IMG/VR virus record: IMGVR_UViG_3300007722_000019
Location: 1 to 54,251 of that record
DNA: 54,251 nt
Source: a virus
Reading direction: 5' to 3' (one strand)
The notes under the pieces were generated by a model. That model searched no databases. It was not told the origin of the DNA and saw only the letters and a program-made list of their open reading frames with translations. The translations under genes were made by a program, and so were the position numbers. Of this stretch, positions 1,846-44,102 are shown one piece after another (position 1 is the first letter of the stretch; each line of letters opens with the position of its first letter).

Positions 1846-1919
1846 GTATCAGTAGTGTAATGGCAGCACGACAGTCTCCAAAACTGTTTGTGAGGGTTCG
1901 AGTCCTTCCTGGTACGCCA
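1846..1919 (+). tRNA. tRNA-Trp(CCA)
   Basis: Acceptor gtatcag/ctggtac, anticodon arm acagt-ctccaaa-actgt (CCA), T-arm gaggg-ttcgagt-ccttc, discriminator G, encoded CCA. Confidence 0.92.
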
Positions 1920-4026: not shown

Positions 4027-4584
4027 ATGTTTATATGTATATATTGTGAAAGAGAATTTAACAAAAAAGAAGGTAATACACTGCACACTAAGTATTGCAA
4101 ATTAAATCCACATTCTATTAAAAGAATTACAGGCGGATCCTTTAGACCAGGTCATTCAGGAAAAGCATCGACCCCGGAGAAAGAAAAGATAAGATCTGAC
4201 AAATTATCAATAATAGCAAAGAAAAATAAATTGGGCGGCTATGTGCATGGTTCTGGCAGAGGTAAGAATGGATGGTATAAAGGATTTTTTTGTGATAGTA
4301 GTTGGGAATTGGCTTATGTAATATATTGTCTGGAACACAATGTATCTATTACACGAAATACTGTTCGACGCCAATATTATTGGGATGGTAAAATTAGAGA
4401 TTATATTCCTGATTTTGTTGTGTCTGGTACCGTAATCGAGATAAAAGGATACAAAACTTCCCAGTGGTTAGCAAAAATGGAAGCTAATCCTGACATTGAG
4501 GTATTGTATGAGAAAGATTTACAACCGATACTTAAGTATGTCAAACTTAAATACGGTAAGAATTTTATAGACTTATATGAATAA
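4027..4584 (+). CDS. PD-(D/E)XK homing endonuclease
   Basis: 185 residues. N-terminal C-x2-C...H..YC zinc-finger-like segment, a GSGRGKNGWYKG linker, then YIPDFVV-x5-IEIKGY, the PD-(D/E)XK catalytic core. This layout is typical of phage free-standing endonucleases of the Vsr/HJR-like superfamily. SD GGGAG and a late box precede it. The stop is 1 base from a tRNA-Ser. Confidence 0.75.
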   Translation: MFICIYCEREFNKKEGNTLHTKYCKLNPHSIKRITGGSFRPGHSGKASTPEKEKIRSDKLSIIAKKNKLGGYVHGSGRGKNGWYKGFFCDSSWELAYVIYCLEHNVSITRNTVRRQYYWDGKIRDYIPDFVVSGTVIEIKGYKTSQWLAKMEANPDIEVLYEKDLQPILKYVKLKYGKNFIDLYE

Positions 4585-4585
4585 T

Positions 4586-4672
4586 GGAGATTAGGGACGC
4601 TGGGCGTTAAATGGCTTTGAATACCATCCCACTTAGTGATAGGTGATAGTTCGATTCTATTATTCTCCGCCA
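4586..4672 (+). tRNA. tRNA-Ser(TGA)
   Basis: Acceptor ggagatt/attctcc (one mismatch), G discriminator, CCA. Loop tttgaat gives TGA on stem atggc/accat with a C31-A39 mismatch. Extended variable arm fits class II Ser. T-arm gatag-ttcgatt-ctatt. Confidence 0.75.
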
Positions 4673-4713
4673 AATTTCTTTTATAAATTCTACTAGTATA
4701 ATACTTCCGCCAT

Positions 4714-4742
4714 TTGACAAAGGAGTGATAAGTAGTTACAAT
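4714..4742 (+). promoter_or_regulatory. sigma70-type promoter
   Basis: TTGACA, 17-base spacer, TACAAT. Placed immediately before the RNA at 4751. Confidence 0.65.
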
Positions 4743-4750
4743 GTATTTAC

Positions 4751-4844
4751 GGGCCGTAGAAGGTGTAAAAGGGTAACACACAAGTCACTGTTATATATTT
4801 GCTGGCTTATGTCAGTTGTGGTTCGAATCCGCCACGGTCCACCA
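4751..4844 (+). ncRNA. tRNA-like RNA with extended anticodon hairpin
   Basis: gggccgt/acggtcc acceptor, T-loop ttcgaat, discriminator A and encoded CCA. Between the D-arm and T-arm is a 9-bp hairpin (cacaagtca/tggcttatg, one mismatch) with a 15-base loop. A normal seven-base anticodon loop is not visible; an intron-like insert of about 16 bases is one explanation. Confidence 0.5.
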
Positions 4845-4888
4845 GTTTTAGACTGTGTTAATATCCTGTCCAGTGGACGCATTTCTTC

Positions 4889-4914
4889 CATCTTTCCTGC
4901 AAGTGGAAAGCAGT
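4889..4914 (+). terminator. possible terminator hairpin
   Basis: ctttcc-tgcaagt-ggaaag followed by cagttttt, just before tRNA-Met. Confidence 0.35.
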
Positions 4915-5689: not shown

Positions 5690-6361
5690 ATGACACACCT
5701 ATCTATACGACATTACATCAACTTGGTAGAATCTGCAGAATTTGCTGCCACAACAGAGGCCGAGGGCGACGCCGAGGGGTTACCGCATCTCACTTCTACA
5801 ATGGCGAAAAATATTTCTGATCAGATCGACACTGAAGGCCCACACGCTATTTCTAAAAGTGTTGAATGGGGTGACGGTGCATCCAGAGAGCTTATTCGAA
5901 AAATACAAAACATGCTAGACGATTATTCAGCTGCTGTAGATGAATCGGCAGCATGGAAAAGAAAAGAAGGTAAAAGTAAATCCGGCGGCCTTAATAGCAA
6001 GGGTGTGGCCAGTTACCGTAAGGAACACCCGGGCAGCAAGTTACAAACAGCAGTAACTACCAAACCCAGCAAACTGGACCCCGACAGCAAAGATGCTAAA
6101 CGGAGAAAAAGTTTTTGTGCTAGAATGGGTGGCATGAAAGGACCGTCGAAAGACGATAACGGCAAGCCCACTCGAAAAGCATTAGCATTAAAGAAGTGGA
6201 ATTGTGAAAGCATTGCTGACCTGGGCATGCTGATTGAATCTGAGATTCAGGAAGCAAAGCAAAGACTAGACCCCAGTTGTTGGAAAGGATACCGAAAGGC
6301 CGGCACCAAAATGAAAAATGGTGTAAAAGTTAACAACTGCGTGCCAACCAACAAAACTTAA
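5690..6361 (+). CDS. DUF6321 phage protein
   Basis: 223 residues. The central and C-terminal region (GGLNSKGVASYR, HPGSKLQTAVTT, KRRKSFCARMGGMKG, KALALKKWNC) is the conserved DUF6321 block known from T4-like and cyanophages. Function unknown; the basic, Cys-containing core suggests nucleic-acid contact. The N-terminus reaches INLVES, resembling a head-targeting peptide. Gene lies directly after a late box, without SD. Confidence 0.75.
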   Translation: MTHLSIRHYINLVESAEFAATTEAEGDAEGLPHLTSTMAKNISDQIDTEGPHAISKSVEWGDGASRELIRKIQNMLDDYSAAVDESAAWKRKEGKSKSGGLNSKGVASYRKEHPGSKLQTAVTTKPSKLDPDSKDAKRRKSFCARMGGMKGPSKDDNGKPTRKALALKKWNCESIADLGMLIESEIQEAKQRLDPSCWKGYRKAGTKMKNGVKVNNCVPTNKT

Positions 6362-6371
6362 ATACCTTTAT

Positions 6372-6444
6372 ATCTCTATCGTCTAACGGTTTAGGACGCT
6401 ACTCCCTCAAAGTAGAAATTTGGGCTCGACTCCCAACAGAGATT
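6372..6444 (+). tRNA. tRNA-Glu(CTC)
   Basis: Acceptor atctcta/cagagat (one mismatch), anticodon arm ctact-ccctcaa-agtag gives CTC but base 33 is C instead of the near-universal U. D-arm tcgtcta...aggac is Glu-like. T-arm ttggg-ctcgact-cccaa. No CCA encoded. Confidence 0.75.
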
Positions 6445-6456
6445 CTATTTTATATC

Positions 6457-6525
6457 CCGCAATGGCTTTATAGATGAGGTCCAAACTTGTTCTATTAGGG
6501 GTTCGATTCCTCGGGGATGCCAGTT
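6457..6525 (+). tRNA. degenerate tRNA, possible Trp(CCA)
   Basis: atccc/gggat acceptor of only 5 bp, T-loop ttcgatt, encoded CCA. A 5-bp stem atgag/cttgt carries loop gtccaaa (CCA). The D-arm is truncated and the RNA is only 69 bases. Coordinates within a base or two. Confidence 0.4.
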
Positions 6526-6527
6526 AT

Positions 6528-6608
6528 GTCTTCTCAACATGAGATGTGTAGGTTCGGAGGTAACGTTACCGAACTTGGAGTGCGGTGTAATACCGACGGG
6601 AGACGCCA
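6528..6608 (+). ncRNA. tRNA-like structure with CCA but no TTCRA T-loop
   Basis: Acceptor gtcttct/gggagac (7 bp with wobbles), discriminator G and CCA. Internal hairpins acat/atgt, gttcgg/ccgaac and cggt/accg occupy the D, anticodon and T positions, but no canonical T-loop or seven-base anticodon loop exists. 81 bases, between two tRNA genes. A tRNA mimic is likely; function unknown. Confidence 0.5.
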
Positions 6609-6615
6609 GTTTTAT

Positions 6616-6689
6616 TGCCTCGTAGCTTAACAGGAAGAGCGGCCGGATTCTGAGTCCGGAGGACGTCGGTTCGAGTCCGACAGGGGTTG
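6616..6689 (+). tRNA. tRNA-Gln(CTG)
   Basis: Anticodon arm ccgga-ttctgag-tccgg (CTG), T-arm gtcgg-ttcgagt-ccgac, discriminator G, no CCA. Acceptor tgcctcg/aggggtt shows U1-U72 and a 7-66 mismatch, both shared with the Gln tRNA at 7499; a weak first pair is a known Gln feature. Confidence 0.85.
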
Positions 6690-6696
6690 CACAAAT

Positions 6697-6704
6697 GATA
6701 AATA
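6697..6704 (+). promoter_or_regulatory. late-promoter box, leaderless spacing
   Basis: GATAAATA ends 4 bases before ATG 6709. Confidence 0.6.
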
Positions 6705-6708
6705 GTTC

Positions 6709-7422
6709 ATGAACTATTTATACCAAATCACCAACCTTATAAACAACAAAATCTATGTAGGTGTTCATAAAACAAATAATATAGATGATGGTTATATGGG
6801 AAGTGGAAAAGTTATAGTATCGGCTATAAAGAAATACGGAATAGAGAATTTCAGAAAAGATATTTTAGAATTCTTTGATACATACGATCTTGTCTTGCAA
6901 AAAGAAACAGAAATAGTTACCGAAGAATTTCTGCAAAGACCCGATGTGTATAATCTCCGTAAAGGAGGTTCCGGCGGATTTGATTATATAAACAAGACAG
7001 GCCTTGCGTCTGTCGGCCGTGTAAAAGGATATAATAATCGAACGAAAGAATCATATGCTAAAATGTCAGAAGGCGGCAAGAAGGGTGCTGCTTCACTTAA
7101 TATTTCAGGTAACAGAACACCCGGTAATGCATCTCGTGCAGATTACGCCAGGTTGCATACGCAAACAAAAGATGCTAAAATTAAAAGAAAGAAGACATTA
7201 GCTGAAATAAATCATCAGCAAGGCACTAAGAATTCCCAGTTTGGAAAGTGCTGGATTACAGATGGTATCGAGAGTAAAAAGATAAAAAAAGAAGAATTAG
7301 AAAAATATGTTTCCGAAGGATGGAGACAAGGAAGAATAATGCACCGTTCGACTTCTGGTGAGGTCACCAGCCTTTCACGCTGGGTAGAGGGGTTCGAAAC
7401 CCCTACGGTGTACCAGTTATGA
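6709..7422 (+). CDS. GIY-YIG homing endonuclease reading into a tRNA
   Basis: 237 residues. LYQITN...IYVGVHKT, YMGSGK and KYGIENF are the GIY-YIG core; FGKCWITDG and GWRQGR are the family tail. Relatives stop right after the GR. motif, but this frame continues for about 27 codons through the tRNA-Glu gene at 7341-7415 and stops beyond it, as expected if insertion next to the tRNA removed the original stop. Confidence 0.87.
   Translation: MNYLYQITNLINNKIYVGVHKTNNIDDGYMGSGKVIVSAIKKYGIENFRKDILEFFDTYDLVLQKETEIVTEEFLQRPDVYNLRKGGSGGFDYINKTGLASVGRVKGYNNRTKESYAKMSEGGKKGAASLNISGNRTPGNASRADYARLHTQTKDAKIKRKKTLAEINHQQGTKNSQFGKCWITDGIESKKIKKEELEKYVSEGWRQGRIMHRSTSGEVTSLSRWVEGFETPTVYQL
7341..7415 (+). tRNA. 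tRNA-Glu(TTC)
   Basis: Acceptor gcaccgt/acggtgt, anticodon arm ccagc-ctttcac-gctgg (TTC), T-arm agggg-ttcgaaa-cccct, CCA. Fully overlapped by the end of the endonuclease ORF. Confidence 0.93.
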
Positions 7423-10374: not shown

Positions 10375-11055
10375 ATGATTTACTATGTCTATGCGTATCT
10401 TAGGAATAAAGATTCAATCTCATCACACTCCGGCAGCCCTTACTATATAGGAAAGGGAAAGAATTTAAGAGCGTGTGAATATCACAGAAATGTTCCCTTG
10501 CCGAGTAATAGAAAAAATATTGTGATATTAGAATTTAATCTTACTGAAGTAGGTGCGTTTGCGATTGAACGCAGGATGATTAAATGGTATGGAAGAAAAG
10601 ATTTAGGAACAGGGATATTACTAAATAGAACAGATGGCGGCGATGGCGCAAGTGGGCACATTGGCCAGATTCCGTGGAATAAAGGCAAAAAGGGCTTGCA
10701 AAAAGCCTGGAATAAAGGTATGCCACATACCGCTGAAACAAGAAAGAAGATATCAATTTCCGGTACAGGCAGAAAACAATCGACAGAAACTATTGCGAAA
10801 AGATCCATTTCGATGCTTGGTAAAAATAAGGATAAGGTACGATCTGATGAACTGAAACAACAATGGGCTAATTCTCATAGAGGTAAAAGACATTCGGACG
10901 AACATAAGCAGAATATATCGGCCGCGCTCAAAGGTAGAGACGGCAGGGTTTGGACAGATGAACAAAAACAAAAACAATCTGTAGAAAGAAAGGGGAAATC
11001 TTGGACTCTTGCAAGGAGAGAAGCACAATCTAAAAGAAAGGAACGAGATGAATAA
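10375..11055 (+). CDS. GIY-YIG homing endonuclease with NUMOD3 repeats
   Basis: 226 residues. YYVYAYLR...PYYIGKGK is the GIY-YIG core. The C-terminal half carries repeated NUMOD3-type DNA-binding motifs ([39 protein letters not shown]). Its end overlaps the start of the release factor at 11048 and it sits on a conserved EIRAA coding site. Confidence 0.88.
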
Positions 11056-11725
11056 TCAACGAAAAATTATAGAAATCCGTGCCGCAGAGGGTGGAGACGA
11101 TAGCAAACTATTCGTAGCTGACTTGGCACAAGCATACCGCAAACACGCTGACAGAGTCGGCTGAATTAATCGTATAACAAAATCCTTACCTGGTGAAATC
11201 TTTATAGAGGTTGTTGGCGCGGATCTTGTTCAACTACAAAATGAATCCGGCGGTCACAGGATACAACGTATACCGCCAACAGAGAATAAAGGTAGAGTTC
11301 ACACAAGTACGGTGACAGTAGCTATTACAGATCCGAATATACAGAAAAAAACGTATAAAGATGCTGACTTTAGTGTTAGTTGGTTCAGTGGCACAGGTGC
11401 TGGTGGGCAACACCGCAATAAACACCAAAATTCGTGCAGAATAACACACTTACTGACTGGTTTAGTGTCTACTGCACAGTGCAGATCAAGGCAAAACAGT
11501 CTAGAACAAGCTAAATCGTCTTTAGTGGAAGAGTTAGATGCAAAGTACAACAAACTTGCAAACAACGAGATTGCTATAGACAGAAAGCAACAAGTTGGCT
11601 CCGGAATGCGTGGAGACAAGATAAGAACTTATCGTTTTCAGGATGATGTCGTGAAAGACCACATTACTGGTAAGAATGGAAGTGTTAAACAAGTCCTAAA
11701 GGGACATTTTAACCTATTATGGTAA
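11048..11725 (+). CDS. class I release factor (RF1-type) with in-frame TGA
   Basis: 225 sense codons plus one internal stop. [28 protein letters not shown], and [15 protein letters not shown] are class I release-factor motifs, including GGQ for peptidyl-tRNA hydrolysis and a PxT (PPT) anticodon tripeptide typical of RF1, which reads UAA and UAG. Domain 1 is missing, giving a short factor. An in-frame TGA at 11162-11164 falls where RF1 has a conserved Trp (..RRW..), so it looks like TGG to TGA. Translation may need UGA readthrough, or the gene may be inactive; the intact downstream frame argues for function. Confidence 0.72.
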
Positions 11726-11728
11726 TAT

Positions 11729-11802
11729 TGGGGATTAGTTAAATGGTATAACAGCGGATTTTGATTCCGCTATCATAGGTTCGATTCCTATATCCCCTGC
11801 CA
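11729..11802 (+). tRNA. tRNA-Gln(TTG)
   Basis: Anticodon arm gcgga-ttttgat-tccgc (TTG), T-arm atagg-ttcgatt-cctat, acceptor tggggat/atcccct with U1-U72, G73, CCA. Third Gln tRNA. Confidence 0.9.
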
Positions 11803-11809
11803 AACAAAC

Positions 11810-11848
11810 AATAGCCTGCTATCGGTAACGGTAGTGGGCTATTCTTTT
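11810..11848 (+). terminator. Rho-independent terminator
   Basis: Stem aatagcc/ggctatt extended by ctatcg/cggtag, followed by CTTTT. Separates the tRNA from the converging minus-strand operon. Confidence 0.65.
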
Positions 11849-16045: not shown

Positions 16046-16792
16046 ATGCTTAGAGATTATCAATCAACTATACTTGGTAAGTTTTATAAGATAAATGATG
16101 TAACAGATCAGAAAATATTAGAAGTCGGTGGCCACAAAATTATGTCTGTCCCGTACGATTTAATATCACACGGTGCAAAAGAAGTAGTCTCTATTTCCAT
16201 TGACAGGGCTTTTAGCAGAATGGTTGTAAGTGATAATATAACAACCAAATATATGAATGCAGGTTCCACAGATTTTTTAGATAATTCGTTTGATTCAATT
16301 ATTTCTATTGCTACCATAGAACATATTCTGGATTTGCCGAGTGTGCTTAAAGAATTACATCGTGTGGTAAAACCGGGCGGCATTGTCTATATGCAAGGGG
16401 GTCCGCTTTGGTCAGGCAGTTGCGGTGCCCATTACAATTTCTGGATAGGGGACGTTGAATATCATTTTGTTAGAAACCGAATATTACACGACTGGGAACA
16501 TCTGTATGCTGGGCCAGAGGGCATAATTAAAAGATTAACTACGTTATATCCTATAGAGGCAATTGATAAATTACTAGATATGACTTACAACGCAGACTTT
16601 ATAAACAGAAGTTTACACACTGATATAATACAGAATATTAATGATTCCGACTTCTTAGTACAGTCGATGGGTTTACATAATTGGCACCCCAATATCCCAG
16701 ATGACTTATTGCCAAATATACGAAAACGGATTCCACATTTTGTTGATGTATGTGACGAAATTTGTGTTTGCCTTAGAAAACAATTATCATAA
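16046..16792 (+). CDS. SAM-dependent methyltransferase
   Basis: 248 residues. ILEVGG (motif I), SFDSIISIATIEHI and LHRVVKPGGIVYMQGG are the class I methyltransferase signature motifs. Target unknown; first gene of the plus-strand operon. Confidence 0.8.
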   Translation: MLRDYQSTILGKFYKINDVTDQKILEVGGHKIMSVPYDLISHGAKEVVSISIDRAFSRMVVSDNITTKYMNAGSTDFLDNSFDSIISIATIEHILDLPSVLKELHRVVKPGGIVYMQGGPLWSGSCGAHYNFWIGDVEYHFVRNRILHDWEHLYAGPEGIIKRLTTLYPIEAIDKLLDMTYNADFINRSLHTDIIQNINDSDFLVQSMGLHNWHPNIPDDLLPNIRKRIPHFVDVCDEICVCLRKQLS

Positions 16793-16807
16793 TTTTACTA
16801 CGACATA

Positions 16808-17662
16808 ATGACAATAAACATAGTATGTACTAGTAAACCTGTCGACGGATTACTCTATTATAGTTACGAATATAATTCATATTTAAATTCGTGCGGAATA
16901 CCTAGTAGACTAATAATTATTCCTCACAGGGGATTTAAGAAAAATGATTACCTATCAGCAATAAATAATAAATATATACATTGTAAAGATGTAATCATTG
17001 ATAGCTTTACTCCGTTAGAAAATGATGTTACACTAGTCATGGGTCGAAGCATGATTACAATATCTTGGCTAAACTTCAATGATTATTCACCTAGTGAACA
17101 AGAGACGTTGGTATCGTTATTTAAATGTAAACTTATTTCAGTTTATTCGGAAAATCATCCTCGTGATTATCCTTTAGCATTAGATTTCTATTCGCCGAAC
17201 TTTGTAGCAGACTTGTGTGATACCGAAGTATATCCCAGTGGGATCGGAACGCACTTTGAAAAGACTATCAATTTTGCAATACATAAGGAATGCAAAATTG
17301 ATAAACAGGTCGAATATTTATTCCTTGGTACAAATGATAAATATTATGATGCTGCTGTAAGTGTAATTAATAATTTTCCGAATTATGGAATTTTGGTATA
17401 CGATGCACCATACATAAATAAAGAACTTAACAATATGTTTGCACCAGTTGATAATTTATTGGGGATCTTTGATACCTACGTATACACTAAGAAGACATTC
17501 GACCCTGCTCCCAGACTATTTCAGGAATGTAAGTATCATAAAAAAAATATTATATATTTACGTGATAAGAATATCATAGATGGTGGTAGCGTATACTGGA
17601 AAAGGTCGTTGAAAGATTTAAATATTAAACCTATTATGGAGGCATATGACAAGTTACATTAA
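16808..17662 (+). CDS. putative glycosyltransferase-like protein
   Basis: 284 residues. The end FDPAPRLFQECKYHKKNIIY resembles the nucleotide-sugar-contacting E-rich segment of GT-B folds seen in phage proteins, but no catalytic motif is certain. Sits 15 bases after the methyltransferase and overlaps the next gene. Confidence 0.4.
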   Translation: MTINIVCTSKPVDGLLYYSYEYNSYLNSCGIPSRLIIIPHRGFKKNDYLSAINNKYIHCKDVIIDSFTPLENDVTLVMGRSMITISWLNFNDYSPSEQETLVSLFKCKLISVYSENHPRDYPLALDFYSPNFVADLCDTEVYPSGIGTHFEKTINFAIHKECKIDKQVEYLFLGTNDKYYDAAVSVINNFPNYGILVYDAPYINKELNNMFAPVDNLLGIFDTYVYTKKTFDPAPRLFQECKYHKKNIIYLRDKNIIDGGSVYWKRSLKDLNIKPIMEAYDKLH

Positions 17663-17966
17663 ACCCGGCTGTTTATCGTTCTATTATGATGAAGCTGGTA
17701 ATCGTGGAACAAAAATAGTCACACAGGTCATAGCATATACTGCTGACGGGTATCTGTTGCCGTGTTGTTGGTGCGATTCGGTGTATTCTAAATCAGATAT
17801 AACTAAGTTAGGTATGCATGATGAATCGCTGAAGGTAAAAAATAATGAGTCAATCGATAGTATACTAACATCTAGCATATGGCAAAAATTTATAAAAATA
17901 ATATCGACTGACCCAATTAATTCCCCTAATTGTTGTCATGACCGTTGCGGAGTTAAGGGTGGATAA
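17646..17966 (+). CDS. stand-alone SPASM-like Cys protein
   Basis: 106 residues. LLPCCWCDS, then S.W..F, then CCHDRCG resembles the SPASM auxiliary Fe-S domain normally fused to radical SAM enzymes. It overlaps by 29 bases the radical SAM gene at 17938, so the pair may be a split enzyme. Confidence 0.5.
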   Translation: MTSYIKPGCLSFYYDEAGNRGTKIVTQVIAYTADGYLLPCCWCDSVYSKSDITKLGMHDESLKVKNNESIDSILTSSIWQKFIKIISTDPINSPNCCHDRCGVKGG

Positions 17967-18648
17967 CGACTATTTAGAGTATATAGGTATTTCAAAACGA
18001 TATATAATACCTAATGTAGAAACTTCGGTTAAGTGTATATTACGCTGCCCGCAGTGTACTCGGCAGGGACTCCTGTCACCGAAGACTTCGGAGAAGTATA
18101 AAACAACAAAATCTAGAATATTAAACGGGGATGATTTGTCAATTAAGGATGCTAAAAAATTATTAGAATTTTTTAATACAGGTGTGGCATTGTGCGGTTC
18201 GTTATCAGATCCTGTGTATTGGCCGAATTTTTTAGAATTTCTTGATTTGGCGAAGTCTTTTCCCGATAGTGCCATTTATATTCATACTGCCGCCAGTCAA
18301 AAAAATATAGAATGGTATAGGGACGCATTTAGTAAATCAACTAAGAATACACACTGGATTTTTGGTTTAGACGGAATGCACGACACTTCAGCTATATACA
18401 GGATTGGCCAAAACAGCAAATTAATGTTTGATGCAATGACTTTGTGTAAGTCAATGGGATTACATACTGAATGGCATTACATCGTGTTTAAACATAATCT
18501 CCATCAGCTGGACACGGCAAAGGAGTTTGCTGCATTACACAATATTAAATTGATATTTATTAAAAGTGACAGAACTGGCGGCAACATAGAAGTCCCAATT
18601 GAATGGAAACCCGGCCGTAATAAGGAATTCGTGCATAATGAAAATTAG
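17938..18648 (+). CDS. radical SAM protein
   Basis: 236 residues. CILRCPQC is a CxxxCxxC radical SAM motif; ALCGSLSDP and FGLDGMHD follow as in twitch-type family members. Lacks its own C-terminal cluster domain, which may be supplied by 17646. One of the few genes ending in TAG; the next ATG lies 11 bases before its end. Confidence 0.75.
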   Translation: MTVAELRVDNDYLEYIGISKRYIIPNVETSVKCILRCPQCTRQGLLSPKTSEKYKTTKSRILNGDDLSIKDAKKLLEFFNTGVALCGSLSDPVYWPNFLEFLDLAKSFPDSAIYIHTAASQKNIEWYRDAFSKSTKNTHWIFGLDGMHDTSAIYRIGQNSKLMFDAMTLCKSMGLHTEWHYIVFKHNLHQLDTAKEFAALHNIKLIFIKSDRTGGNIEVPIEWKPGRNKEFVHNEN

Positions 18649-19438
18649 AGATGTTGAATTATTCGAACCGGGTGTTATTAATTTAATTAATTCGCAGAAA
18701 TTTGTAGCAATACGTATTAGTGGCGGCATAGATTCCGCTATATTATGCCATATTATTCTTAAATATTTTCCACATATCGAATTGTTACCATTTACTTTTT
18801 TTAATAAATTAAGACCATCAGCAATAAATTCAGTTAATAACGTTATGAGACAACTATCTGTATTAAATCCTAATAATAAATTAATGACACACCGAATTGC
18901 ATTTTTTGATACAACACTTCCGTATATAAGGGTAAACGATAGTGGCGGACTTAAACAAAGTCCTAAGGATGCACTTCAGCGGCAATATATAAGAGATCTG
19001 TTTGACGAGTATAATGGTGATTTAAATTTAATTTTTTCCGGAGAATCCTTAAATCCTCCAGCAAATATACAGGCAGAATTAAATATGGATGGCCATTTCC
19101 TTAAATACCGGAATGAAATAATATCGGATGTGTTATTGAAATATACATATAATAATGAATATAAGTACGAATATAGGCCGTTTATAAATTATACCAAGAA
19201 ACAAATTTCGGAAGTTTGCAAAGAACTGGGATTAATGGAGACCCTCTTTCCGTACACAGAAACTTGTGAATCTGTACCGCGGCAGTATAATGATATTTAT
19301 ACTCATAAGTACGGTATAACATACACCACGCCGGGCGTTGAACCATGCCAGTGCTGCTGGCCATGCAGGGAAAAGTTCTGGGCATACGGGGTTTTCGACT
19401 TCAATACACCGGTTAGAGTGAAAGACTTAATCAAATGA
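18638..19438 (+). CDS. QueC/asparagine-synthetase-like ATP pyrophosphatase
   Basis: 267 residues from ATG 18638, AAGGA upstream. SGGIDSA PP-loop at the N-terminus, FSGESLNPP in the middle, ETCES and PCQCCWPCREKFWAYG at the C-terminus form a QueC-like zinc/tail region. Probably adenylates a carboxylate or amide of the island's intermediate. Paralogue-like to 164. Confidence 0.72.
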   Translation: MKIRDVELFEPGVINLINSQKFVAIRISGGIDSAILCHIILKYFPHIELLPFTFFNKLRPSAINSVNNVMRQLSVLNPNNKLMTHRIAFFDTTLPYIRVNDSGGLKQSPKDALQRQYIRDLFDEYNGDLNLIFSGESLNPPANIQAELNMDGHFLKYRNEIISDVLLKYTYNNEYKYEYRPFINYTKKQISEVCKELGLMETLFPYTETCESVPRQYNDIYTHKYGITYTTPGVEPCQCCWPCREKFWAYGVFDFNTPVRVKDLIK

Positions 19439-20940
19439 AAATATTTTCTATTGCTGCTAATATGCATGATCATAATACATATGATGGCATTATCCATCGT
19501 CAGGAAGAAAGATACACAAGGAGAAAACATAATTTAATAACCGATAATCCGCATGATCCTTTACCAAGTCGAGAATTCTTCACAGAGCAGTTTATTCCAG
19601 CCTTCACTCTAACTGGTGTGATGCCTGCGTTCACATGTTCAAATTTAGGTAAACAATTTGTTTTAGATTTACTAGAAGATCAGCTATCGGATACGGGATT
19701 TTTATCATTTAAGCCAAAGACTATCTGGGATAGGTATCAGACACCCGACTATTACTATATCGACCACCATCAGTCCCATGCTGCGTATGCATATCTTACA
19801 TCGGGGTTCAATGAATCCGATATACTTGCAATCGACGGCCAGGGTTGCACATTTAGCTGTATATTTGTAGATAAGTCTGGGAAAATAATTGATTTATCGC
19901 CTAAATTATCTATAGGTGGTTTGTGGAATCTATTGTCGCAACAGGTAGGCCTGGGATATTTAGGTGCAGGAAAGTTAATGGGGTTATCTGCATATGGAAA
20001 ATATGACAACAGAATAGCAGACGTAGTTTCGTTATACCTTAGAAATCCAATTCATAAATTGCCTGATTACGCATATAGCATTGTTATGAATACTGAAAAA
20101 AAAGACATAGCTTATACTTTGCAATATATAACTACGCGATTAGTTATAGACACAATAATGCAGTATAAGACATCTGACAATATATGTATTGCCGGCGGCG
20201 TAGCTTATAATGGGTACCTAAATGAAGAATTTACTAAATTTTATACAAATGTGCATATACCACCTGCAGTAGGGGATGAAGGCCAATCAATCGGCACCTA
20301 CATGCATGCAAACTATGTATTAAATAATAGTATAGATATTCCGAGTGTATATTCGGGGGAATCGCACACACTTGATCCTGCAATTTTTAAAGGGATAAAT
20401 TTCAAAAAAGAATCATTTGACAGTTTGTCAATTTATATAGCTGACGCAATTTCAAATGGCAAAATTGTCGGGTGGTATCAGGGCAGATCCGAAAGTGGGA
20501 ATAGAGCCCTTGGAAATCGTAGCATTTTAGCAGATCCCAGAAATCCGAATATTAAAGATATAATTAATTCTAAAATTAAATTAAGGGAAGATTTTCGACC
20601 GTTTGCCCCTAGTGTGCTAGAGGAGCACTATAAGGAATATTTTCTTACTAACCAACCGAGTCCGTATATGTCTAGGATAATCCCTGTAATATCAGATAAA
20701 ATACCTGGTGTAACCCACATCGATAAGACAGCAAGAATACACACCGTAACTAGAGAATCTAATGAAAGATTTTTTAAATTAATTACAGATTTTCATAATA
20801 TAACAGGAATACCTATGTTACTGAATACAAGCTTCAATTGTAGAGAGCCTATTGTCGAAACACCAACAGATGCTATAAACACTTTTAAGAAGTGTGGATT
20901 AGATATTCTTGTAATTGACGATTACATAATTGAAAAATGA
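19435..20940 (+). CDS. NodU/TobZ-family O-carbamoyltransferase
   Basis: 501 residues, near normal family length. DHHQSHAAYAYLTSG, DGQG, GLGYLGAGKLMGL, GGVAYNG and GRSESGNRALGNRSIL are the N-terminal Kae1-like domain and the C-terminal YrdC-like domain boundary motifs; NTSFNCREPIV closes it. These enzymes move a carbamoyl group from carbamoyl phosphate, through a carbamoyl-adenylate, to a hydroxyl on sugars or antibiotics. Overlaps both neighbours by 4 bases (ATGA), so tightly coupled. Confidence 0.92.
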   Translation: MKIFSIAANMHDHNTYDGIIHRQEERYTRRKHNLITDNPHDPLPSREFFTEQFIPAFTLTGVMPAFTCSNLGKQFVLDLLEDQLSDTGFLSFKPKTIWDRYQTPDYYYIDHHQSHAAYAYLTSGFNESDILAIDGQGCTFSCIFVDKSGKIIDLSPKLSIGGLWNLLSQQVGLGYLGAGKLMGLSAYGKYDNRIADVVSLYLRNPIHKLPDYAYSIVMNTEKKDIAYTLQYITTRLVIDTIMQYKTSDNICIAGGVAYNGYLNEEFTKFYTNVHIPPAVGDEGQSIGTYMHANYVLNNSIDIPSVYSGESHTLDPAIFKGINFKKESFDSLSIYIADAISNGKIVGWYQGRSESGNRALGNRSILADPRNPNIKDIINSKIKLREDFRPFAPSVLEEHYKEYFLTNQPSPYMSRIIPVISDKIPGVTHIDKTARIHTVTRESNERFFKLITDFHNITGIPMLLNTSFNCREPIVETPTDAINTFKKCGLDILVIDDYIIEK

Positions 20941-21575
20941 TAGATCTTGTAAATAACACCATTAGTTTAGATTTATTTAGGAAAGTTTTAAAAGAAATAA
21001 AAAACCAATCAACACTTTATCTGGATATGATAGATTCGTTTAGTGACAACCAGTTTAAATCAAAAGTATTTTTGTTAGACCAGTTAACAAACCTCGGTAT
21101 AGTAAATGAGGCAACATATGTTGTCATTATCGGGTGCTGGTACGGTAGTATACTTATACCTGTATTGTCATCTAAAGTATCTAAAATAACTGGGATTGAT
21201 TTAGATGACAGGTCGATACGCATAGCAAAAAATAGATTTTTTCCAAATTATAAAAATGTATATTTTAGGACAGGAGACACCTTTGATACAACTAAAAATA
21301 AAACCATCTACAGTGATGCTAATTTAATTATTAATACATCCTGCGAACATATGCGCCCAATGTGCGAATGGCCTTACTGGGATAGTGTGAAGAGTGATGC
21401 ATATTTTGCATTTCAGTCGAATAATATGTTCGGCATAGACGGGCATACCAATTGTGTAAATTCAATAATTGAGTTTAAAGCTCAGATGCCGACAAAATTT
21501 GAAGCAATTTTTGAAAATGAATTAATCGAAGACAGGGGAATTCGTTACACACTTATCGGAAAAATGCATCCATAA
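20937..21575 (+). CDS. SAM-dependent methyltransferase
   Basis: 212 residues. VVIIGCWYGSILIPVL (motif I), GIDLDDRSIRIAKNRF (acidic SAM-binding residue) and NTSCEHMRPM are class I methyltransferase features known from phage proteins of this size. Overlaps the carbamoyltransferase stop. Confidence 0.75.
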   Translation: MIDLVNNTISLDLFRKVLKEIKNQSTLYLDMIDSFSDNQFKSKVFLLDQLTNLGIVNEATYVVIIGCWYGSILIPVLSSKVSKITGIDLDDRSIRIAKNRFFPNYKNVYFRTGDTFDTTKNKTIYSDANLIINTSCEHMRPMCEWPYWDSVKSDAYFAFQSNNMFGIDGHTNCVNSIIEFKAQMPTKFEAIFENELIEDRGIRYTLIGKMHP

Positions 21576-28056: not shown

Positions 28057-28803
28057 ATGAACTACTTGTATAAAATAACTAACATAATAAACAATAAAAT
28101 TTATGTAGGGGTCCACCAAACTGACAGTATTGATGATAGATATATGGGATCAGGAACTGCAATAATTCGTGCCATAAAGAAATATGGAATAGAAAATTTC
28201 AGAAAAGATATATTAGAATTTTTTGATACATATGAAATGGCTTTAGAAGCTGAAGAACTTATAGTTGATAAGAAATTTATTTTACGTGAAGATGTGTATA
28301 ATCTCAGAACAGGTGGCATCGGCGGTTGGGGCCACATAAATTCGATTGACAAAGCTGACAGAATAAATATAAAATCATTTAAGGCTAAAATAGCATCAGG
28401 GGAACTAAAAGTAGGTGGTTCACAGCATTGGACAGAAGAAAATAGAAAAAAAGTTATAGACACTGCAAGAAAAAATGCAAATAAAGTAACTGGTGCTGCC
28501 CATACTGAATCTGCAAATAATAAACGAAATGCAACATTTAAGCGAATAGGGTTTTCCCAGGGTAAAAAGAATTCACAATATGGAAAATTTTGGATATCAA
28601 ATATAGAAACAAAAGAAGTAAGACGAACAGATAAAGGTGCAAATATTCCAGATGGCTGGGTAAGAGGTAAAAAGGGGCACGAAGTTAAAACGGCTTGGAT
28701 AAATAACGGAATAAGAGAAACCATTATTTTAATAGGTGATAAAGATTACTCTTTAAATAATGGATACATTGCAGGTAGATTAAGGAGAAATTCTGCTATT
28801 TAG
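28057..28803 (+). CDS. GIY-YIG homing endonuclease next to tmRNA
   Basis: 248 residues. LYKITN...IYVGVHQT, YMGSGT and KYGIENFRKD define the GIY-YIG core; QYGKFWISN and the basic tail follow. Close paralogue of 6709. Stops in TAG directly at the 5' edge of the tmRNA acceptor piece. Confidence 0.88.
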   Translation: MNYLYKITNIINNKIYVGVHQTDSIDDRYMGSGTAIIRAIKKYGIENFRKDILEFFDTYEMALEAEELIVDKKFILREDVYNLRTGGIGGWGHINSIDKADRINIKSFKAKIASGELKVGGSQHWTEENRKKVIDTARKNANKVTGAAHTESANNKRNATFKRIGFSQGKKNSQYGKFWISNIETKEVRRTDKGANIPDGWVRGKKGHEVKTAWINNGIRETIILIGDKDYSLNNGYIAGRLRRNSAI

Positions 28804-28804
28804 T

Positions 28805-29078
28805 TAGCAAGTGTGTAACAGAGAATGTGCGACACGAGGATTCGACTTCCTCCACCTCCACCTAAGTTACTTAGGATACTTAGGTGGGGGTGAACTGGCT
28901 ATCGACCGCGCAGGCAAAATTACACATAGAATCGTCATGTAACCGACGTTAATGATACAAAAATAGTAAATGCAAACGCAAATACAAACGAGTTGAACAT
29001 GTCTGCTTTCGCAGAGATGGTCGCAGCCTAAGAAACTGCCACTCCGAGGTAGGACTTACCTTGTATAATAAATAACCA
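28805..29078 (+). ncRNA. ssrA: circularly permuted (two-piece) tmRNA
   Basis: Acceptor piece first: P2 strand, T-arm gagga-ttcgact-tcctc (28836-28852), acceptor cacctcc 28853-28859, A28860. A 25-base spacer with a cctaag/cttagg hairpin follows. Coding piece then starts gggggtg 28886-28892, pairing perfectly with the acceptor 3' strand, followed by the tmRNA D-like gaactgg..tcgacc. P2 forms between cgcgca and tgtgcg, and ttacaca and tgtgtaa. The tag frame 28972-29031 reads ANANTNELNMSAFAEMVAA then TAA, ending in the usual protease degron. CCA is not encoded (CCT). Confidence 0.87.
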
Positions 29079-29102
29079 ATGGGGCTTCGGCCCCATTTTT
29101 AC
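29079..29102 (+). terminator. Rho-independent terminator
   Basis: atggggc-ttcg-gccccat followed by TTTT. Ends the tmRNA and may also serve the opposing gene. Confidence 0.85.
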
Positions 29103-29122
29103 GACTCCCAATTTATCGAAAT

Positions 29123-34016: not shown

Positions 34017-34091
34017 TCGCCAGTAGCTCAGCGGCCGAGCAAGAGCCTCTAAAACTCCTAGTCGTGGGTTCGAATCCCACCTGGCGAACCA
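34017..34091 (+). tRNA. amber-suppressor tRNA (anticodon CTA)
   Basis: Perfect 7-bp acceptor tcgccag/ctggcga, U8-A9, D-arm gctc/gagc, perfect T-arm gtggg-ttcgaat-cccac, A73, CCA. Canonical spacing puts the seven-base loop at 34047-34053 (ctctaaa): U33, CTA at 34049-34051, A37. The stem has mismatches at both ends. Reads UAG. Amino-acid identity not determinable by eye. Confidence 0.85.
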
Positions 34092-43469: not shown

Positions 43470-43717
43470 TCGAAGTATCGTTTACGGAATACAGGTATTT
43501 CTCAGAATGCCCAATATGGTGGAGAAACTTCTGCACTGTTACATCTGGCGAATGGGTTTCTGCAGATGGTAGGAATCTATTGCTAATAGCGGAAATAGCG
43601 AAATTTTCTGGAAATATTGTGGATGGTGGGAATAATGAAGATGTAGATCACTTAGAATTTGAAACAGAAGAAGACTTTAATTTATTTAAAACATATTGGA
43701 TATTACGTGGCAAGTAA
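43466..43717 (+). CDS. hypothetical phage protein
   Basis: 83 residues. GTG start overlaps the previous stop (GTGA). Acidic. Not recognised. Confidence 0.5.
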   Translation: MIEVSFTEYRYFSECPIWWRNFCTVTSGEWVSADGRNLLLIAEIAKFSGNIVDGGNNEDVDHLEFETEEDFNLFKTYWILRGK

Positions 43718-44102
43718 ACAGGTATTGGTTATGCGTAAGTTTATCGGTAAAGGATCGAGAATTGGAAAATACGTGGCACAAGGCGCCCACGCAAGTGTAG
43801 GAGCATTGTTTTCTCTTGGTGCAATAGATAAAGAAGCAAAGGAATTTGTTATCGATATTAGTAATCCATTCGTATATGAATGGGTTGTTGGCAACTTTAG
43901 AAAGATTACCTGTTATGTCGAAACTGATCAGGAATTGACCGACATTTACATTGCTGCAAGATCAGCCGGAATTGCATGTTCCATAATTGAAGATTCTGGA
44001 TTAACTGAATTCAATGGTGTAAAAACTCTGACCGCAATTGGCGTCGGGCCAGCCGACGAAGAATTGATAAACAAACTTACCGGGCATCTGCCCTTATTTT
44101 GA
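43707..44102 (+). CDS. pth2: peptidyl-tRNA hydrolase 2
   Basis: 131 residues. KQVLVMRKFIGKGSRIGKYVAQGAHA, the ITCYVETDQEL strand and IEDSGLTEF...TAIGVGPA give the Pth2 fold with the catalytic region around GK.(V/A)AQ.AHA. GTG 43707 is preferred because it includes the first beta strand; ATG 43731 would remove it. Hydrolyses peptidyl-tRNA released from stalled ribosomes. Confidence 0.88.
   Translation: MASKQVLVMRKFIGKGSRIGKYVAQGAHASVGALFSLGAIDKEAKEFVIDISNPFVYEWVVGNFRKITCYVETDQELTDIYIAARSAGIACSIIEDSGLTEFNGVKTLTAIGVGPADEELINKLTGHLPLF

Follow-up and report, generated by a model that had tools for sequence, protein, structure and literature searches.

A short RF1-type release factor gene with a conserved in-frame UGA: likely control by recoding in phages and some Proteobacteria

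Frameshift control of RF2 (prfB) is a textbook feedback loop. Other known systems share features with the gene considered here: PrfH is a release factor homologue without domain 1; code-switched phages (codes 4 and 15) carry their own release factor close to a large array of tRNAs; and viral readthrough stem-loops of the MuLV, tobamovirus, and alphavirus types place RNA structure about 7–8 nt past the stop codon. RF2 and RF1 genes were covered in a 2016 review by Atkins et al., which gives no RF2 gene with an in-frame UGA followed by the same frame, and treats a UAG counterpart in RF1 genes as not known (PMC5009743). A prfB survey of 8,164 genomes describes prfA as being without programmed frameshifting and the prfB motif as being without TAG (Prince et al., 2025; PMC12421855). 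RF1 and RF2 are mentioned for huge phages (PMC7162821). The nearest precedent, a viral release factor gene with conserved UGA readthrough, is the class-I factor of Mimivirus (R726) and Megavirus (mg280), for which a further frameshift is reported as well, and a Hirsh-like tRNA-Trp (PMC3521657). The literature searched, largely without subscription papers and preprints, yielded no account of phage RF1 genes like those described below.

The window, that is, the whole stretch of DNA analyzed, is an IMG/VR virus record of 54,251 bases, with 38% GC and 31 tRNA/tmRNA predictions. The start of its release factor gene (Table 1) overlaps the 3′ end of a NUMOD3/homing-endonuclease-like ORF. If UGA is read as Trp, the frame runs for 225 codons to a TAA; the TGA at codon 39 is its single internal stop, the frame is the same on both sides, and there is no +1 frame change at a CUU-UGA-C site. 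A preliminary description of the gene, as encoding an RF1-type factor with PPT and GGQ motifs and an in-frame UGA at a conserved Trp position, whose production would need UGA readthrough without a change of frame, is confirmed. What is new is that the UGA is fixed in phages and Alphaproteobacteria, that an RNA structure lies downstream, that domain 1 has been lost, that relatives use other types of recoding, and that the code is otherwise standard.

As in prfB, an early internal stop interrupts a class-I release factor gene whose full product needs recoding, and sister lineages of the window family use a CUU-UGA cassette with a Shine-Dalgarno-like stretch. Unlike prfB, the window factor is RF1-type (PPT), lacks domain 1, and stays in frame, and its clade also uses UAG. 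The Mimivirus/Megavirus protein differs in being an unrelated one of eukaryote/archaeal eRF1 type, from an amoeba virus, with both recoding events in one gene. Unlike PrfH, the window factor has PPT and an RF1-type codon-reading region, and it falls below the cut-off of the NCBIfam PrfH model (35.4 bits vs. 166.65); unlike code-switched phages, the window phages have no genome-wide reassignment. The resemblance to viral readthrough stem-loops is in the stop followed by structure after about 7–8 nt, but this is a bacterial/phage system, and the stem is known here by comparison only.

Table 1. Features of the release factor locus; positions are those of the window.
Feature	Position	Strand	Basis or remark
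tRNA-Trp(CCA) with U11-A24 pair like that of the Hirsh UGA suppressor; candidate helper	1846..1919	+	tRNA prediction
AAAGGA, putative Shine-Dalgarno-like stretch, 5 nt 5′ of ATG	11037..11042	+	by reading sequence
Gene for RF1-type release factor lacking domain 1	11048..11725	+	domain matches, dN/dS, Foldseek
38-codon leader	11048..11161	+	stop at UGA would give 38-residue peptide
In-frame UGA, conserved Trp position 39	11162..11164	+	family alignment
5′ arm of conserved stem, beginning 7 nt past UGA	11172..11184	+	stem scan, pair counts
3′ arm of conserved stem	11221..11233	+	stem scan, pair counts
PPT tripeptide, residues 76–78	11273..11281	+	translation
GGQ motif, residues 119–121	11402..11410	+	translation
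tRNA-Gln(TTG), directly 3′ of release factor gene	11729..11802	+	tRNA prediction
Intrinsic-terminator-like hairpin ending the release factor/tRNA-Gln stretch	11810..11843	+	consensus match only

At the protein level, Pfam PCRF (84 bits) and RF-1 (61 bits) match, one on either side of the UGA. The NCBIfam prfA model scores 174 bits, well short of its cut-off of 423, and because its match begins only at position 112 of 361, release factor domain 1 (~100 N-terminal residues) is missing; the protein looks like a working RF1 yet fails curated prfA filing. Its tripeptide is of the PxT type (PPT) rather than SPF, as in 288 of 297 family matches (a redundant set), and PPT is also present in seven canonical RF1 matches; this is the RF1-type motif for stop-codon reading. 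The AF2 model has a pLDDT of 86.7, and its top Foldseek matches are ribosome-bound RF1 and mtRF1a (TM 0.81–0.86 relative to the query within the first 20), with RF2 lower. From the PPT tripeptide and the RF1-like fold, the factor is predicted to read UAA and UAG. Many phages (L295–L410; for example L306, L359, and L376) have another, smaller RF-1-domain protein without PCRF and with a 12-letter protein stretch.

The UGA is conserved across the family. All 83 loci from the first round of searching, which took the best 80 of 243 relatives in IMG/VR, have TGA at codon 39; further IMG/VR scans took the best 80 of 447, 239, and 229. Wider searches, including a pattern scan and profile mapping, brought the total to at least 119 unique sequences, which form 91 clusters at 90% identity, reach pairwise identities as low as 40%, and each cover more than 120 columns of the model. 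All 119 have TGA at codon 39, a set kept by TGA at this column with TGG and other rows tallied apart; the search patterns did not require TGA, and most relied on sequence elsewhere in the gene, for example GGQHRNKH. The family has two further invariant Trp columns, which are TGG in 119/119 and 116/116, a pattern far beyond chance. At the codon-39 column, TGG occurs only in canonical RF1 genes (36 unique matches) and one frameshifted relative (L168), and canonical RF1 matches mostly have Trp there. The preliminary description had named TGG in homologues as the sign of a simple mutation or sequencing error, and on this alignment that explanation fails. Sequencing error is also very unlikely because two IMG/VR contigs from different samples (L002 and L003) share the identical gene with the same TGA. 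The base following the UGA (+4) is never U (0/119), but 9 of 114 variable columns, the +4 column included, are without U-first codons. Twenty phage records have one RF-1 family gene each.

Chromosomal or contig copies are found in Thalassospira, Rhodospirillales, Jiella, an alphaproteobacterial MAG, Sphingomonas, Gemmobacter, and Rhodovibrio (seven of the eight loci L163–L170), and copies with UGA on isolate plasmids of Bosea sp. RAC05 and Rhizobium leguminosarum TP16; in a Variovorax plasmid copy the UGA is a few codons further on. Among the matches listed for 385 Alphaproteobacteria genomes, an in-frame stop was found in one, which was the genome used as the center. Annotation pipelines can overlook or split such genes: the Variovorax sp. 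WDL1 plasmid 2 copy (L510, 3959–4663) is annotated as two ORFs, split at the stop, and that of the Bosea RAC05 plasmid (L508, 3995–4627) solely as an antisense hypothetical gene across the factor.

At the RNA level, the 81 nt beginning with the UGA have a mean folding z of −2.52 relative to synonymous-codon shuffles (SE 0.17, 91 representatives), with 75% of representatives below −1.5. Segments starting 6 and 12 codons upstream, which overlap this one, score −1.78 and −1.39, the remainder −0.2 to −0.9, and 45 canonical RF1/RF2 controls −0.32 at the corresponding codon. A stem scan of 76 ungapped representatives (15 of the 91 were omitted for length changes between the arms) places the best nine-bp stem of 5995, by both pairing and covariation, within a helix at +10..+22/+59..+71. 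Stem cells are paired in 67.8% of cases, compared to 59.1 (sd 0.7) in shuffled and 28–48 in slid controls, and both sides have changed 72 times, compared to 21.3, all of these counts being inflated by relatedness. Synonymous third bases are skewed at codons −1 and +1 to +4, and codon +2 has Y in 52/52 four-fold codons (0.56 expected), neither being corrected for relatedness. RNAalifold gave no consensus stem at the stop with either 22 or 76 sequences; because of this, and because the stem comes from single folds, the scan, and pair counts, the z profile is more secure than the exact pairs of the stem. Within the window itself the conserved helix is the minimum-energy fold, yet z is 0.02 relative to synonymous shuffles, and the high-GC chromosomal copies L165, L166, L169, and L170 have no structure excess. 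The comparisons support a cis-acting structure 3′ of the stop family-wide, weak in the window's own sequence.

A profile built from huge-phage release factors led to a wider clade, in which the counts are of genes matching three motif patterns. Recoding near the place of the UGA is required by 149 of 151 unique short-form genes, and by none of 45 full-length release factor genes; L454 and L086 are short-form members without an internal stop. Readthrough would be needed in 135 (UGA in 125, UGA+UGA in seven, UGA+UAG in two, and UAG in one) and a +1 frame change in 14 (at UGA in 10 and UAG in four). CUU is directly 5′ of the stop in all 14 frame changes, with GGAGGGG or a close variant upstream in most; CUU at the stop with such a Shine-Dalgarno-like stretch is the RF2 arrangement, here in genes related to that of the window. 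The preliminary description aptly compared the gene to RF2 autoregulation, a CUU-UGA-C cassette having replaced the readthrough codon in parts of the wider clade. L168 (Hahella sp. MAG, counted as L421) has CUU-UAG without a GGAGGGG-like stretch. A search of its order gave no further CUU-UAG cases: the family is in one of 244 genomes, L168's own, and 90 other matching genomes have longer, uninterrupted frames. Eight loci outside the patterns (L446, L447, L463, L467, L468, L481, L498, and L506) each have one in-frame UGA, and the three plasmid genes (Bosea, Rhizobium, and Variovorax) are also outside the count of 151. The release factors of the huge phages LR756501, LR745206, LR756502, and LR756504 are interrupted at other codons, by one or two in-frame UGA each. 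In readthrough genes with stops elsewhere, structure past the first stop is raised (z −1.57, n = 17, vs. −0.24 and −0.08).

A tree of 74 rows, including 35 with readthrough at codon 39 and eight of full-length RF1, needs 13 changes among eight gate labels. This pattern suggests that forms of the gate have been swapped, namely readthrough at UGA (with a hairpin), at tandem stops, or at UAG, and RF2-style +1 frameshifting at UGA or UAG. We lean toward the view that this short RF1-type clade of huge phages and a few Proteobacteria is nearly always placed behind a recoded stop, with the recoding mechanism swapped and the gate kept. RF2 control would then have its first counterpart on the RF1 side, one that senses the termination state as a whole. 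RF1-type genes with RF2-like control in several interchangeable forms would stand against the absence stated in the review and the survey (PMC5009743, PMC12421855). Since interchangeable gate forms occur in near relatives, sensing of the factor's own codon and of total load could be told apart with UGA and UAG versions.

The likely explanation for the window gene is programmed recoding that ties the output of an extra release factor to slow termination; the cell seems to make the factor only while stop codons are read slowly. The observations behind this are the conservation of the stop, selection past it, the RNA structure of the family, the ordinary stop function of UGA in other genes, and the frameshift sites in sister lineages; from these we infer readthrough itself, Trp insertion, UAA/UAG specificity, and the feedback logic. 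Ribosomes would initiate at 11048 and reach the UGA after 38 codons, where the usual outcome would be termination by host RF2. When UGA termination slows down, the UGA could be decoded by a near-cognate tRNA, with tRNA-Trp the likeliest, aided in most family members by the hairpin ~7 nt past the stop; the RF1-type factor of 225 residues would then be made. This would add UAA/UAG capacity and release RF2 from UAA codons, so that UGA termination would be restored and the factor's own synthesis shut off. Because UGA is RF2's codon while the factor resembles RF1, the gate would report RF2 shortage, for example when RF2 is occupied at UAA during heavy phage translation, which extra RF1 activity could relieve. 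A coupling of termination capacity to UGA competition, raised in the preliminary description, gains evolutionary support in this way, although the coupling as such is still deduced.

Direct autoregulation through the factor's own specificity is not the simple reading, because a UAA/UAG reader should sense UAG, yet UGA dominates. It would follow, however, if the factor also reads UGA. A factor with widened specificity could recognize the recoded stop, whether UGA or UAG, and, like RF2, end its own translation once it is plentiful. UGA and UAG are indeed swapped among close relatives (L453 and L465, with UAG, cluster in the tree with L460, with UGA; the sites are CUU-UAG in L453 and CUU-UGA in L460), UAA is the recoded stop in 0 of 149 genes, and the RF2 cassette GGAGGGGUCUUUGAC is found in PPT factors of the clade; but PPT and the RF1-like fold predict UAA/UAG reading, and we give this alternative perhaps one chance in several.

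A tentative alternative to recoding governed by slow termination, and a less probable one than widened specificity, is that a phage suppressor tRNA-Trp (CCA, either Hirsh-type or one whose anticodon stem has 4 bp) decodes the UGA late in infection and so turns the factor on. The window tRNA-Trp has the U11-A24 pair, and A24 is present in 18 of 28 unique tRNA-Trp compared to 366 of 940 other tRNAs (non-bacterial loci plus L169; p 0.01), but U11-A24 is common in the other tRNAs of the same loci (337/940), and the Hirsh type was set aside as an explanation on account of this weak enrichment. Seven of the 28 unique tRNA-Trp(CCA) have no standard 27-43 pair, for example C27-U43 with A24 in L378, L383, and L401; this is the form reported to read UGA, an anticodon stem of 4 bp being found to increase readthrough at UGA in E. 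coli (PMC13092985), and the Mimivirus tRNA-Trp carries the same A (PMC3521657). Chromosomal and plasmid copies, on the other hand, depend on host tRNA, UGA is a stop throughout, and a UCA anticodon was found in none of 1923 (redundant) tRNA predictions.

That UGA is plainly a sense (Trp) codon in these phages or their hosts is highly improbable. The frame can be read under code 4, and code-4 coverage is clearly up in 3 of 10 phage stretches. In two of these (L418 and L419), however, the rise is due to short operonic genes and antisense frames, and L412 is poorly coding either way. Long ORFs in the window and ten 18-kb phage stretches with the gene end in TAA 125 times, TGA 74, and TAG 27 (n = 226), many of the TGA stops being in 4-base stop/start overlaps; UGG encodes every other invariant Trp of the family, and two full-length release factors are present in each of seven bacterial genomes that carry the gene. 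UGA likewise serves as a stop in the sampled stretches of LR756501, LR745206, and LR756502, and coding density gains little or nothing under code 4 in these and LR756504 (0.733 to 0.803, 0.783 to 0.810, 0.843 to 0.866, and 0.855 to 0.849, respectively). UGA is an ordinary stop elsewhere in the window and the sampled records, which refutes a change of genetic code for them.

Selenocysteine insertion, with the hairpin immediately 3′ of the UGA acting as a bacterial SECIS, can be given hardly any weight: a SelB domain was detected in 0 of 14 genomes or records (an E. coli control was positive), most canonical RF1 have Trp at the position, and relatives use UAG or a frameshift site.

Selection was compared on the two sides of the UGA, with dN/dS of 0.107 5′ and 0.125 3′ (28 independent pairs). 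By this measure the frame past the UGA is functional and under purifying selection; together with the same stop in 119/119 relatives and the identical copies, it leaves next to no room for a decayed gene or sequencing error, in favor of which there is the internal stop itself and nothing more. Restart after the UGA was also rejected: the first in-frame ATG, GTG, or TTG is 4 to 148 codons away in the distances listed, with no shared site, and restart at GTG 11312 would lose the PPT region.

Several other features of these genomes concern translation. A CUA-anticodon tRNA in the window (34017–34091), called tRNA-Pyl by ARAGORN, is also found in L006 and L011; it may be an amber suppressor, and the phages concerned carry the RF1-type factor as well. 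A two-piece (permuted) tmRNA gene lies at 28771–29122, with others in L006 (6197–6653), L009 (7021–7360), L010 (5657–6120), and L011 (5657–6170); in L010 and L011 it overlaps the 3′ end of the release factor gene. The ribosome-rescue set in the tmRNA-bearing phages fits Alphaproteobacteria-like hosts. Unusual cargo is found close to the tRNA-rich region of the window, where ORFs at 16046–21575 were named by eye as methyltransferase-like, radical-SAM-like, and carbamoyltransferase-like. In Gemmobacter caeni (L169), genes for a PTH2 peptidyl-tRNA hydrolase (4495–4908) and a Thg1-like protein (6243–7244) adjoin the factor, among 18 tRNAs, and a window ORF at 43659–44102 is, by eye only, PTH2-like.
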